A program made the position numbers and the translations under genes. The notes beneath the pieces are model-generated. The model saw only the letters and a list, made by a program, of their open reading frames with translations. It searched no databases and had not been told where the DNA came from. Positions 8,275 through 11,855 of a stretch of DNA of 43,542 nt are shown piece by piece. The number at the start of each line of letters is the position of its first letter. Positions within the stretch are counted from its first letter, which is position 1. The stretch is from Phycisphaerae bacterium. GTDB lineage: Bacteria; Planctomycetota; Phycisphaerae; SM23-33. The stretch spans positions 1 to 43,542 of the forward strand of contig JAFGJE010000183.1 of the NCBI GenBank assembly GCA_016929245.1, written 5' to 3'.

Positions 8275-8637
8275 CTACTCAATCCGTCGCAGTGTCCAAT
8301 GATCGTCTTTTTCTTGTTGTAGTTCCATCACAACGTTGAAATCGTTTCTTTTCAGTAGGATTTGACGATGGGATTCGTCGGTTTGGAGGACTTGATAATC
8401 TCCGTGTTGAGCGCGACGGACACATCCGCGATCCCGGCTGACCGGTCCTTCGTAATGGAGATAGGCCATACGATGATCGGGGAGTTTTCGGCAGGGAATG
8501 CTTTGCCCGGGGGATAGAGTGGTTGGGTCGGCGGGACACTGCCATGTCGCCAGCGCGTCGGATTCTTCAAGCAGGAAGTCCCAGTGCTCCCGCTGGTCCA
8601 TGGTGTGATGCAGTATGACAAATCTTCGTGTCATCAT
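8275..8637 (-). CDS. Stand-alone LigD-type 3'-phosphoesterase (DNA polymerase ligase N-terminal) domain protein
   Basis: 120 aa from the first of two tandem ATG codons (8637; the second is at 8634). The extra 50 residues in the ORF track are the translation of an intergenic repeat and are rejected. The sequence RRFVILHHTMDQREHWDFLL (residues 4-23) and LPDHRMAYLHYEGPV (52-66) match the core motifs of the 3'-phosphoesterase domain that in many bacteria is fused to DNA ligase D; H11, D20 and H55 are candidate metal or catalytic residues. That domain trims 3'-phosphate or ribonucleotide ends during non-homologous end joining. Here it stands alone, as in several planctomycetes, with no Ku, ligase or polymerase gene nearby. 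The role is therefore inferred; family membership is likely. Confidence 0.78.
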   Translation of the reverse strand: MMTRRFVILHHTMDQREHWDFLLEESDALATWQCPADPTTLSPGQSIPCRKLPDHRMAYLHYEGPVSRDRGCVRRAQHGDYQVLQTDESHRQILLKRNDFNVVMELQQEKDDHWTLRRIE

Positions 8638-8663
8638 GAGGATTCCATCACGAGGGAACTTAT

Positions 8664-8892
8664 ACAAATTCAACAAAAAAACCGATCTTGATATTTGTCT
8701 TTCTTTGAAAGTAGCCACGGGCGCAAGCCCGTGGGAAAAAGAATCTGTGATTTTCCCGAGCCCCGCGGGGGCGATTGAAACATTCAATCGCCCCCGCGGG
8801 GCTCGAATGTATCTTCACGGCGAGGTGTCCATCCCTAAGGGATGGCTACTTTCAAAGAAAGAACAACAAATTATATCACCTTTGTTGAATCG
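8664..8892. repeat. Nested palindromic element (family A, copy 1)
   Basis: The core runs from about 8700 to 8863. It starts TTCTTTGAAAGTAGCC and ends GGCTACTTTCAAAGAA. The left outer arm CCACGGGCGCAAGCCCGTGG is itself a hairpin with a GCAA loop. The central palindrome pairs GAGCCCCGCGGGGGCGATTG with its complement. The right outer arm differs from the other copies: CCATCCCTAAGGGATGG, also a hairpin. Flanking ATTCAACAAA (left, near 8667) and TTTGTTGAAT (right, near 8881) extend the symmetry almost to the stop codon of the endonuclease V gene at 8896. Other copies are at 10916-11087 and 42720-42877. Confidence 0.88.
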
Positions 8893-8895
8893 GCG

Positions 8896-9558
8896 TCATA
8901 CGTCCCGTTTCGCCCGCGCTACGTGTCGGTCGGCGAGGCGCGTCGGTTCGGGCAGGCGGAATCCTCGCCCGGCCCGGAGTACCCAATCCACGCATTCCTC
9001 GAGCGTGACGCGATGACCGACGGAAATGTAGAGCGGTTTGACGTTGTCCCGCGTTCGCAACACCGCGCCGATGGTGTGATCCTGGAAACGAAGCGGCGCC
9101 TTCGCGCCGCGTTTCAGGCCGGGCGTTCGATGGTCCCCGCGGAGACGACTCTTGGCGACCCCGATCGTCGGCACGTTCAGCCACAATCCCACGTGCGACG
9201 CCAGGCCCAGGCCGCGGGGATGCGCGACCCCCTGTCCGTCGCACATCAGCAGATCGGGCGCGGGGGTGAGTTTCCCGACAGCCGCGATGACCGCCGGCGC
9301 TTCGCGGAAGCTCAACAATCCCGAGACATACGGAAACCCACAAGGCTGCACTTCGACGGCGGAGGTCAGAACCTCCATCGTCTCGGCGTCGCACAGCACC
9401 GCGACGGCGACGATGCGATTGTCGTCGGTAAACGCGCAATCCACACCGGCGATGGTTCTGACGTCTCCCGATAAAGGCGCTTGGCGCACCAGCCCGGCCA
9501 GTTCCTTCTGCAACGCGATCGCGTCGGAAGGCGAAATGTCCCAGCGGTGATGAATCAT
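8896..9558 (-). CDS. nfi: Endonuclease V (deoxyinosine 3'-endonuclease)
   Basis: 220 aa. All family signatures are present: IAGVD (D40), PYVSGLLSFRE (E86), DLLMCDGQGVAHPRGLGLA (D107), GVAKSRL and SVGHRVTLEECVD. The spacing of the three acidic metal ligands (46 and 21 residues) is the same as in the well-studied bacterial enzymes. The enzyme nicks DNA one base 3' of deoxyinosine and so starts repair of deaminated adenine; in the cytosol it acts on DNA or inosine-containing nucleic acid. The ATG at 9558 has no clear Shine-Dalgarno sequence, but a CATGAT hexamer lies just upstream, so the message may have little or no leader. The neighbouring LigD-like domain gene on the same strand is also a DNA-repair type, but a repeat separates them. 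Confidence 0.96.
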   Translation of the reverse strand: MIHHRWDISPSDAIALQKELAGLVRQAPLSGDVRTIAGVDCAFTDDNRIVAVAVLCDAETMEVLTSAVEVQPCGFPYVSGLLSFREAPAVIAAVGKLTPAPDLLMCDGQGVAHPRGLGLASHVGLWLNVPTIGVAKSRLRGDHRTPGLKRGAKAPLRFQDHTIGAVLRTRDNVKPLYISVGHRVTLEECVDWVLRAGRGFRLPEPTRLADRHVARAKRDV

Positions 9559-9604: not shown

Positions 9605-9716
9605 ATGCAAAATCACGAAGACCACAAAGGCCACGAAGATCACGAAGAAGATCAATAGAATCCTTAAAAAAACTCTTTGTGAACTTCGTGATCTTAGTGA
9701 ACTTTGTGATTCATTC
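9605..9716. repeat. Imperfect palindrome (family G) abutting a stop codon
   Basis: The left arm (about 9610-9648) is rich in CACGAAGA/CCACAAAGG/CCACGAAGATCACGAAG words. The right arm (about 9679-9715) is the imperfect complement GAACTTCGTGATCTTAGTGAACTTTGTGATTC. The element fills the gap between endonuclease V and the next minus-strand gene, and its right end touches the stop codon of the latter (9717). Confidence 0.75.
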
Positions 9717-10826
9717 TTATTCAAACAACGTACCGTTGGTCGTTTCGATCACGTATCGGTTGTCCAGAAAATATTGGATCGCCTCCGGGCAGGAACGAAA
9801 TACTTCGGTAGCCGTCTCGGTGATGAAGGGGGAGGGGTCGCGCCGGGGTTTCCACACGACGAACACGTCGCGCGTGGATTCGTGGGCGTGCTGGAGTTCG
9901 CGTTCCACCCCGCTGGAGAGCGCCGGCTTGCCGTCGGGCAGCTCCGGAACGAGGGAGATGATCATGTCGGCCTGGTCGATCAGCTTGAAGTCCCGCACGT
10001 AAATCTGCCCGTCGATATCGGCGATCACTCCGAGCACCTCGCTGGTGTCCAGCGTGATGCGCTCCGGCTCCTCGCCGACGGTGATCGTGCGCTTGCCGTC
10101 CTGAGCGGCCTGGATCGCCTGGAAGGTCAGCGGTTTTTCCTTTTCCATGTCCGCCGGGTCGAAGCAGGTGAAGTAGCGTTTCATGTCCCGGCGGAACTGC
10201 TCGATTTCCGCCAGCACGTCGGGAAGGTCCATCACGTGCGACATGGGGAAGCTCAGGTACGCCTTTTTCATCTCAGGGCGAAACATTAATCGCACGATCG
10301 TCTGGGCGAGATCGTCCCCGCCGCGAACGCAGATGAAGAACTTCCCGTGCCCGCGCACGATGCGGCTGAGCAGTTCCGTGGCGAGAATTTCCTCCTCCCG
10401 CCAGACCATCAGGTCCTTGAGCGTCGGGTCGTGATGCCCGTCCTGGCGCAGGCGGCGGTACACCTGGTCGATGCTGTCGACCAGCACGATGTACAGGTCG
10501 GCGTCGAGGAGCTTCATCTGGTCGTGGTCGAACGCGAAAAACAACCCGTGCCGCCAGCGGAACGTGGCGTGCGTGTTGATGATGACGTTGGACTCGGTTT
10601 TCGCCTCGGCGATCACGTCCTTGAAGACGCTGCGACGGAGGTTTTCCAGCCGTCCCAGGGGCAGGTCGAGAATTTTCCCCGCGCCCACGTCCGGCGCCTC
10701 GGCGTACATCATGTCGCCGATGTGAAACAGCTTCACGTCGAACCCCTCCTGCTTCGCCATCGCGGCGACGTTCTGCAGGAACGGTTTTTTATCCAAACCA
10801 ACCTGTCCGGTGACGACGACCTTCAT
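9717..10826 (-). CDS. P-loop NTPase / nucleoside 2-deoxyribosyltransferase-like fusion protein
   Basis: 369 aa with two parts. Residues 1-180 begin MKVVVTGQVGLDKKPFL, a modified Walker A resembling archaeal-type adenylate kinases but with LDKK in place of the usual GKT/S. VIINTHATFRW (81-91) and LYIVLVDSIDQVYRRL (111-126) fit a nucleotide-kinase core. Residues 186-330 look like the nucleoside 2-deoxyribosyltransferase fold: KAYLSFPMSH, YVRDFKLIDQADMII (276-290) and SSGVEREL (304-311, E308 as candidate nucleophile). The two together suggest nucleotide sensing or salvage, but no reaction can be assigned. It has no signal peptide. A GGAAAGG about 5 nt before the ATG supports the start. The neighbours (endonuclease V, RNA ligase-like phosphoesterase) are nucleic-acid related, which is only circumstantial. 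Confidence 0.72.
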   Translation of the reverse strand: MKVVVTGQVGLDKKPFLQNVAAMAKQEGFDVKLFHIGDMMYAEAPDVGAGKILDLPLGRLENLRRSVFKDVIAEAKTESNVIINTHATFRWRHGLFFAFDHDQMKLLDADLYIVLVDSIDQVYRRLRQDGHHDPTLKDLMVWREEEILATELLSRIVRGHGKFFICVRGGDDLAQTIVRLMFRPEMKKAYLSFPMSHVMDLPDVLAEIEQFRRDMKRYFTCFDPADMEKEKPLTFQAIQAAQDGKRTITVGEEPERITLDTSEVLGVIADIDGQIYVRDFKLIDQADMIISLVPELPDGKPALSSGVERELQHAHESTRDVFVVWKPRRDPSPFITETATEVFRSCPEAIQYFLDNRYVIETTNGTLFE

Positions 10827-10915
10827 GGAACCTTTCCGTTTCGTTATTCAGAATCCATAACAAAAAGAGTTTTGCCACAAAGGGTACGGCGCGGGCTTCG
10901 CCCGTAAACTAATTC

Positions 10916-11087
10916 TCTTTTTGAAAGTAGCCACGGGCGCAAGCCCGTGGATAAATGCCGTTTCTTCTCTTTGAGCCCCGCAGGGGCGATTGAAATACAA
11001 TACATATCTCTCAATCGCCCCTGCGGGGCTCTTGTCATATTCAAATCGTTTTTCCCACGGGCTTGCGCCCGTGGCTACTATCAAAAA
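10916..11087. repeat. Nested palindromic element (family A, copy 2)
   Basis: Outer flanks CTTTTTGAAAGTAGCC and GGCTACTATCAAAAA. Both outer arms are GCAA-loop hairpins (CCACGGGCGCAAGCCCGTGG at about 10931-10950 and the reverse form CCACGGGCTTGCGCCCGTGG at about 11055-11074). The centre is a 20-bp-arm palindrome, GAGCCCCGCAGGGGCGATTG paired with its complement. A small GGGCTTCGCCC hairpin sits just to the left (10893-10903). It fills the space between two divergent genes (starts at 10826 on minus and 11262 on plus), so it lies in or near both 5' regions. Confidence 0.88.
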
Positions 11088-11248
11088 CATAAAGAATGAA
11101 AATCGTTACACAAATTACAGACTTGACTCGTTAGTAGTATAGAGATCACAAAAGTAATAGAAACAATTCTTTGCGACCTCCGCGTCCTTTGTGGCTTCTT
11201 GTTTTTTCAAAGGCCACGTTATCTTTAGGCGTTGCGGGATGCAAGTGT

Positions 11249-11254
11249 TATACT
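11249..11254 (+). promoter_or_regulatory. -10 element placed for a leaderless thpR transcript
   Basis: TATACT ends 7 nt before the thpR ATG, the usual distance to a transcription start, and no Shine-Dalgarno sequence is present. A weak -35 (TTAGGC, 11225-11230) lies 18 bp upstream. Confidence 0.45.
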
Positions 11255-11261
11255 GCTCCGC

Positions 11262-11855
11262 ATGTCTCATCGGACGTTTATCGCGCTGGACGTGAACGAC
11301 GCGGTCCGCCGCCGGTTGGGGGAACGGCGCGACGCGATTCGCCCGGCTGTCGGACGGAGTGACAAAATCAACTGGGTTTCCCCGGAGAATTTCCACGTGA
11401 CGCTGAAATTCCTCGGCGACGTGCCCGACGCGATGCTCTTGGACGTCTGTCAGGCCGTGCAAAGCGTCGCGGGACGAATCGAACCGTTTGATTTTACGGT
11501 CCGGGGAATCCAGGCGGTCCCCCCGGCGGGGCGAAACCTTCGGATGTTCTGGGCGGACGTGACCGACCCCGACGGGAAACTGGTGAATCTGTTCGCCGCG
11601 ATGGAAGAAGCGATGGAAGGGTTGGGATTTCCTCGGGAAACCCGTCCCTTCGCCCAGCATATCACGCTGGCGCGCGTGAAATACGTCCGCGACGCCGAAT
11701 CGCTCCGGGTCGCGGCTTCCGGGCGGGGGAGTGAATCGGTCGGCGTGGTTCGGGCGGAACAGGTTACGGTATACACCAGTCAACTGACCCAAGGCGGATC
11801 GATCTACACACCAACCGTCAAAGCAAGATTGGGACCTTTACCTCATATTCCATGA
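11262..11855 (+). CDS. thpR: RNA 2',3'-cyclic phosphodiesterase (2H family)
   Basis: 197 aa from the ATG at 11262; the track's upstream TTG start lacks support. The two HxT motifs of the 2H phosphoesterase fold are clear: NFHVTLKFLGDVP and FAQHITLARVK. The family hydrolyses 2',3'-cyclic phosphate ends of RNA to 2'-phosphate and was first described as a 2'-5' RNA ligase. It acts in the cytosol. The length and order of motifs match ThpR/LigT proteins. A -10-like TATACT sits 7 nt before the start codon, so the message may be leaderless. The gene is followed by a family B palindrome at 11876, which may end the transcript. No tRNA-processing partner is in the window. Confidence 0.93.
   Translation: MSHRTFIALDVNDAVRRRLGERRDAIRPAVGRSDKINWVSPENFHVTLKFLGDVPDAMLLDVCQAVQSVAGRIEPFDFTVRGIQAVPPAGRNLRMFWADVTDPDGKLVNLFAAMEEAMEGLGFPRETRPFAQHITLARVKYVRDAESLRVAASGRGSESVGVVRAEQVTVYTSQLTQGGSIYTPTVKARLGPLPHIP

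Follow-up and report, generated by a model that had tools for sequence, protein, structure and literature searches.

The closest described relatives of the C-terminal half of the protein reported here are enzymes that act on deoxynucleoside monophosphates (dNMPs). Phage DmtZ (Ghobes gp53 and the N-terminal domain of Wayne gp53) is a dAMP hydrolase and deoxyribose-5-phosphate transferase (PMC12884076), and enzymes of this kind have so far been described from Z-DNA phages. Pro57 of Ghobes DmtZ is kept in all known transferases, and phage Wayne fuses DmtZ to an enzyme that converts dNTPs to dNMPs, yielding DmtZ-DutZ (gp53) (PMC12884076). The roles of individual residues have been described for DNPH1 (also known as Rcl), a 5-hydroxymethyl-dUMP N-hydrolase (EC 3.2.2.-) in which one of the two phosphate serines, S128', is contributed by the partner subunit (PMC10603095). 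The related enzyme MilB carries a Phe in place of DNPH1 Y24 and uses ribonucleotides as its substrate (PMC10603095). For the N-terminal half the nearest relatives are the archaeal AdkA-type adenylate kinases, among them that of M. igneus (M. igneus AK), in which Met43 touches the AMP adenine (PMC10883716).

Here we analyse a 369-residue protein encoded in the window (the whole stretch of 43,542 nucleotides under study), in which an altered adenylate-kinase-like domain is joined to a domain of the NDT superfamily. The original prediction knew of no named enzyme with this layout, and our literature search, which covered few subscription papers, likewise returned no description of a kinase-NDT fusion. 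The fusion is a new architecture built from known domain families, for which DmtZ-DutZ of phage Wayne is the nearest architectural precedent. In the phage a base-cutting domain is naturally fused to a second nucleotide-pool enzyme, a dUTPase-like domain, and here the partner of the predicted base-cutting domain is an AdkA fold. The protein is likely to be a new player in nucleotide-pool control.

The fusion gene and its distribution

The gene lies on the minus strand (Table 1), and the plus strand of 9717-10826 contains no open frame. All of the motifs on which the original prediction was built are present in the 369-aa product: GQVGLDKKP at residues 7-15, YVRD at 276-279, DQADMII at 284-290 and SSGVERE at 304-310. 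Chance can be set aside as an explanation for this frame because orthologues are found in 50 of 60 relatives examined and in 222 of 244 good genomes of class Phycisphaerae, 78 residues are invariant across 38 diverse homologues (the alignment to which all conservation counts below refer), and pairwise dN/dS values are low in both halves (~0.07-0.45). The AlphaFold model of the full-length protein, built from the same 38-member alignment, has a pLDDT of 88.7 and a pTM of 0.87. In-frame stops had been reported for some relatives (family f8 and others), but none falls inside the coding region at the nine loci that were read; in these relatives the gene ends a few residues short of the model end.

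Table 1. Position of the fusion gene, its domains and its predicted functional residues in the window.
Feature	Position	Strand	Basis
Fusion gene, 369 codons	9717..10826	-	ORF call; ATG 10826-10824, stop 9719-9717
N-half, archaeal AdkA-type adenylate-kinase-like domain, residues ~1-183	10278..10826	-	Pfam, profile, Foldseek
Altered Walker A GQVGLDKKP, residues 7-15	10782..10808	-	G7, G10, D12, K13, K14
N84 within NT (residues 84-85), replacing the Walker-B-like Asp of AdkA DTH	10572..10577	-	Alignment
C-half, DNPH1/DmtZ/NDT-type N-glycosidase domain, residues ~186-360	9747..10271	-	Model, Foldseek, hhalign
Y190, predicted catalytic Tyr (Y24 human DNPH1, Y6 Ghobes DmtZ)	10257..10259	-	38/38, alignment
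F222-D223-P224, FDP motif, end of strand 2	10155..10163	-	P224 pairs with Ghobes DmtZ Pro57
Beta-hairpin insertion, residues ~242-266, region of DNPH1 shielding loop	10029..10103	-	Model, alignment gap
D279, predicted catalytic Asp (D80 DNPH1, N77 DmtZ)	9990..9992	-	38/38, hhalign
S304, predicted 5'-phosphate Ser (S98 DNPH1; D92 L. leichmannii NDT)	9915..9917	-	37/38, hhalign
E310, predicted nucleophile (E104 DNPH1, E103 DmtZ)	9897..9899	-	38/38, hhalign
S332 of PSPF, predicted second phosphate Ser (S128' DNPH1)	9831..9833	-	38/38, hhalign

The two halves are joined throughout the 222 class genomes that carry the protein, mostly in a single copy. No genuine split form was seen among the class genomes examined; an apparent split in one genome (G533) is an assembly effect, since the scaffold contains an N-run and another contig has its first base within the C-terminal half. 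A sample of the phylum (n=294) gave matches in 21 members of the class and in one of the ~272 other planctomycete genomes, the sole exception (G277) being 83% complete and in 1020 contigs. Absences within the class are clustered, such that families f108 and f14 lack the fusion in every listed genome. Those of f14 include three single-contig genomes that are 98-99% complete, and because closed, near-complete genomes of one family do without it, the fusion is not universally needed. The distribution beyond Planctomycetota was judged from the best 80 of 442 genome-contig matches together with searches of phage, plasmid and viral-contig sequences. The titles of those best 80 matches are planctomycete, naming Phycisphaerae, with the exception of one MAG, Chitinophaga pinensis, and the plasmid, phage and viral-contig searches with the fusion protein gave no match. 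An apparent full-length structural match to a viral entry (A0A0U4IH67) was discarded; the window protein matches no phage record by tblastn.

The C-terminal half resembles dNMP-acting members of the NDT superfamily

The deoxyribosyltransferase-like character first proposed for this half on the basis of short motifs is corroborated by its fold. Modelled alone, it reaches a pLDDT of 90.3, and its top 31 Foldseek matches in the PDB are all DNPH1, NDT or MilB (E 5e-6, best 5.1e-6, to 6e-4). Conventional domain searches are less telling: the window protein does not match PF05014 (NDT), 17 of the 38 homologues do so weakly and below the cut-off (best E 0.0034), and the model scores above its cut-off in one of 61 class genomes sampled. 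Profile comparison places the domain nearest to the dNMP-acting branch formed by DNPH1 and the phage enzyme DmtZ. Against a combined DmtZ and DNPH1 profile, hhalign gave a probability of 86.5%, an E of 4.6e-6 and a score of 42.0, to be compared with at most 21.4 over 60 column shuffles, 11.5 for the reversed profile and 10.6 for the N-terminal half.

The residues expected of a working active site are in place. In the unsupervised profile alignment, D279 falls opposite D80 of DNPH1, S304 opposite S98, E310 opposite E104 and S332 opposite S128', and the reference sequences of human DNPH1 and L. leichmannii NDT agree letter for letter with their PDB chains. Conservation of a nucleophile among homologues had been set beforehand as a check on this half, and E310 is invariant (38/38). 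The role predicted for Y190 follows that of the corresponding Tyr in DNPH1 and DmtZ (PMC10603095, PMC12884076). Since the ribonucleotide enzyme MilB has Phe at this position, the invariant Tyr suggests that deoxyribose is the sugar recognised. D223, P224 and D226 are likewise invariant.

Comparison with individual enzymes reveals both shared and divergent features. With DmtZ the domain shares the fold, the motifs Y-x-[AS]-x-P-[IVM], FDP and SxG..E, and the equivalences Tyr6/Y190, Pro57/P224 and Glu103/E310, but the two are only ~20% identical, and D279 stands for Asn77 and Ser/Thr196 for Asp12. With DNPH1 it shares the fold, the Tyr/Asp/Glu triad and two phosphate serines. It differs in having FDPxD for LTEHV (E55, H56), a Ser/Thr at the place of R30, and a beta-hairpin instead of the shielding loop (modelled as strands 247-250 and 257-260, and a gap against DNPH1 and DmtZ in the alignment); identity is low, and DNPH1 is not a fusion protein. 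Nucleoside-type NDT (PF05014; L. leichmannii NDT) has the same fold and nucleophile, whereas Ser304 here occupies the position of D92 and the Pfam score is under the cut-off. Taken together, sequence and model make the domain a member of the NDT superfamily that is similar to the enzymes of the family acting on dNMPs, and it looks like an intact base-cutting enzyme for DNA building blocks.

The N-terminal half is a maintained but altered adenylate-kinase-like domain

The original prediction of a nucleotide-kinase-like half agrees with the fold, which is that of a P-loop NMP kinase. The domain matches Pfam AAA_17 (E 7.7e-10) and archaeal AdkA in a profile search (6ln3, E 3.2e-10), and archaeal AdkA structures are the Foldseek PDB matches of the full model (E ~1e-8, target-normalised TM up to 0.82). 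The domain libraries searched report just 'AAA domain' for this region, and the score for NCBIfam PRK04040, at 33.3 bits, is below the cut-off of 155. The Walker A motif had been described as unusual in the placement of its lysine. The motif is indeed altered, but the lysine itself (K13) occupies the canonical position of GxxxxGK[ST] and it is the flanking residues that have changed: Gly to Asp before it and Thr/Ser to, mostly, Lys after it. These features are well conserved (G7 and G10 in 38/38, D12 and K13 in 37/38), with Lys at position 14 in 29/38 homologues and Thr in just 2/38. A second substitution affects the Walker-B-like DTH of 6ln3 and 6pjw, with which N84 aligns in 38/38 homologues.

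Relative to archaeal AdkA (PRK04040; 6pjw, 6ln3, 1nks), then, the domain retains the fold, the conserved GxxG, the THxxx region and the AMP-contacting Met (invariant M40, which lines up with Met43 of M. igneus AK), but GK[ST] has become DK[K] and DTH has become NTH, there is no clear LID arginine pair, the host is bacterial and the domain is fused. R125 aligns with LID R131 of M. igneus AK, and R138/R140 have no counterpart in the profile alignment, with the invariant K137 and R143 nearby. Judged from its sequence, this is probably not an ordinary working kinase. Such degeneracy of the P-loop is not proof of lost kinase activity, because some archaeal AdkAs deviate and are still adenylate kinases; M. 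igneus AK itself is without the Walker lysine (GVPGVGGTT). The domain is maintained, since its conservation is as high as that of the C-terminal half (mean 0.72 versus 0.67, with 40 versus 38 invariant positions) and its dN/dS is low.

Proposed activity and alternative explanations

We infer that the protein may be a dNMP N-glycosidase of housekeeping deoxynucleotide pools whose N-terminal half binds a nucleotide either to deliver the substrate or to regulate the enzyme, a reading we consider about evenly balanced between right and wrong. The earlier suggestion, that the protein salvages or senses nucleotides or makes a nucleotide signal, is thereby narrowed: dNMP chemistry is likelier than nucleoside chemistry because the phosphate-binding serines and the similarity to DNPH1 and DmtZ point there, and the signal role is argued against (see below). 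In the proposed mechanism, a 2'-deoxynucleoside 5'-monophosphate would bind with its phosphate on S304 and S332' and its sugar over Y190, D279 and E310; E310 would attack C1', with the base departing with the help of D279; and the resulting deoxyribose-5-phosphate ester would then be passed to water or to another base. The C-terminal half is thus possibly a deoxyribose-5-phosphate transferase instead of a hydrolase. The N-terminal half would still bind a nucleotide, its AMP-type site probably taking an adenine nucleotide, but with its Mg/phosphate positions replaced it would not carry out ordinary phosphoryl transfer, and might instead bring substrate to the glycosidase or toggle its activity. 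If true, Phycisphaerae would have a class-wide deoxynucleotide-pool enzyme, DNPH1/DmtZ chemistry would extend to bacterial housekeeping, and an adenylate-kinase fold would apparently have been converted to a role in binding or control. Testable residues are D12, K13 and N84 in one half, and Y190, D279, E310, S304 and S332 in the other. A bolder version, which we regard as doubtful, is of a chromosomal, class-wide 2'-deoxyribose-5-phosphate transferase/hydrolase of the DmtZ kind, controlled by a pseudo-kinase that senses adenine nucleotides through its rewritten P-loop (DKK).

Several other explanations were considered. The protein could be a bifunctional salvage enzyme, in which the C-terminal half moves deoxyribose-5-phosphate from a dNMP to a free base and an active kinase half phosphorylates the new dNMP, so that the fusion would channel dNMP to dNDP. 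Retention of K13 (37/38), the alignment of invariant P224 with the transferase-conserved Pro57 and the ability of DmtZ to perform both hydrolysis and transfer (PMC12884076) are all in keeping with this. We nevertheless think it unlikely, given that nearly all homologues have other residues at the Mg/phosphate positions (the T/S after K and the Asp of DTH), that the profile alignment offers no clear equivalent of the catalytic LID arginines of AdkA, and that the host genome already carries a canonical adk. Rather less plausible is an N-terminal ATPase or nucleotidase that breaks di- or triphosphates down to (d)NMP for use by the C-terminal half: the dNMP-making domain fused to DmtZ in Wayne gp53 (PMC12884076) is a precedent, but such activity is not known for the AdkA fold and the metal-binding residues look lost. 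That both halves are catalytically dead, the fusion serving as a nucleotide-binding scaffold or sensor, would account for the loss of canonical kinase residues but sits badly with a C-terminal triad and phosphate serines that are (near-)invariant across the class, which is unexpected in a dead enzyme; we judge it improbable. Finally, although the NDT/DrHyd superfamily includes nucleotide-signal and NAD-processing enzymes of the TIR-DrHyd-SLOG kind (PMC9503650), a role of this sort in defence or regulation is very improbable, since a class-wide, mostly single-copy distribution disfavours conflict or signalling, and the protein evolves slowly, has no mobile or defence context and matches none of the PADLOC defence models.

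Genomic neighbourhood

The fusion gene is followed immediately, in the same orientation, by an endonuclease V gene (8896-9558, minus strand). It is tempting to read a DNA-pool role from this adjacency, but the adjacency is kept, as is that of an oxidoreductase neighbour, only within the same genus. The largest conserved cluster of neighbours around the fusion gene covers at most 13 of 79 loci and, because no wider neighbourhood is conserved, function has to be deduced from the fusion protein alone. Also in the vicinity are a stand-alone protein with a LigD 3'-phosphoesterase-like domain (8275-8787, minus strand) and, adjoining the fusion gene on the opposite strand, a LigT-like 2'-5' RNA ligase/phosphodiesterase (11232-11855, plus strand). 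An imperfect inverted repeat just 3' of the fusion stop codon (9623-9708; CACAAAGGCCACGAAGATCACGAAG / CTTCGTGATCTTAGTGAACTTTGTG) may be a terminator or a repeat. The pair formed by the endonuclease V and fusion genes is flanked by two copies (8698-8862 and 10913-11092) of an intergenic element with nested palindromes, of the form GAAAGTAGCCACGGGCGCAAGCCCGTGG ... GAGCCCCGC[A/G]GGGGCGATTGAA and its inverse; the inner unit of this element occurs in 11 copies in the genome, compared with 0 for the reversed control.
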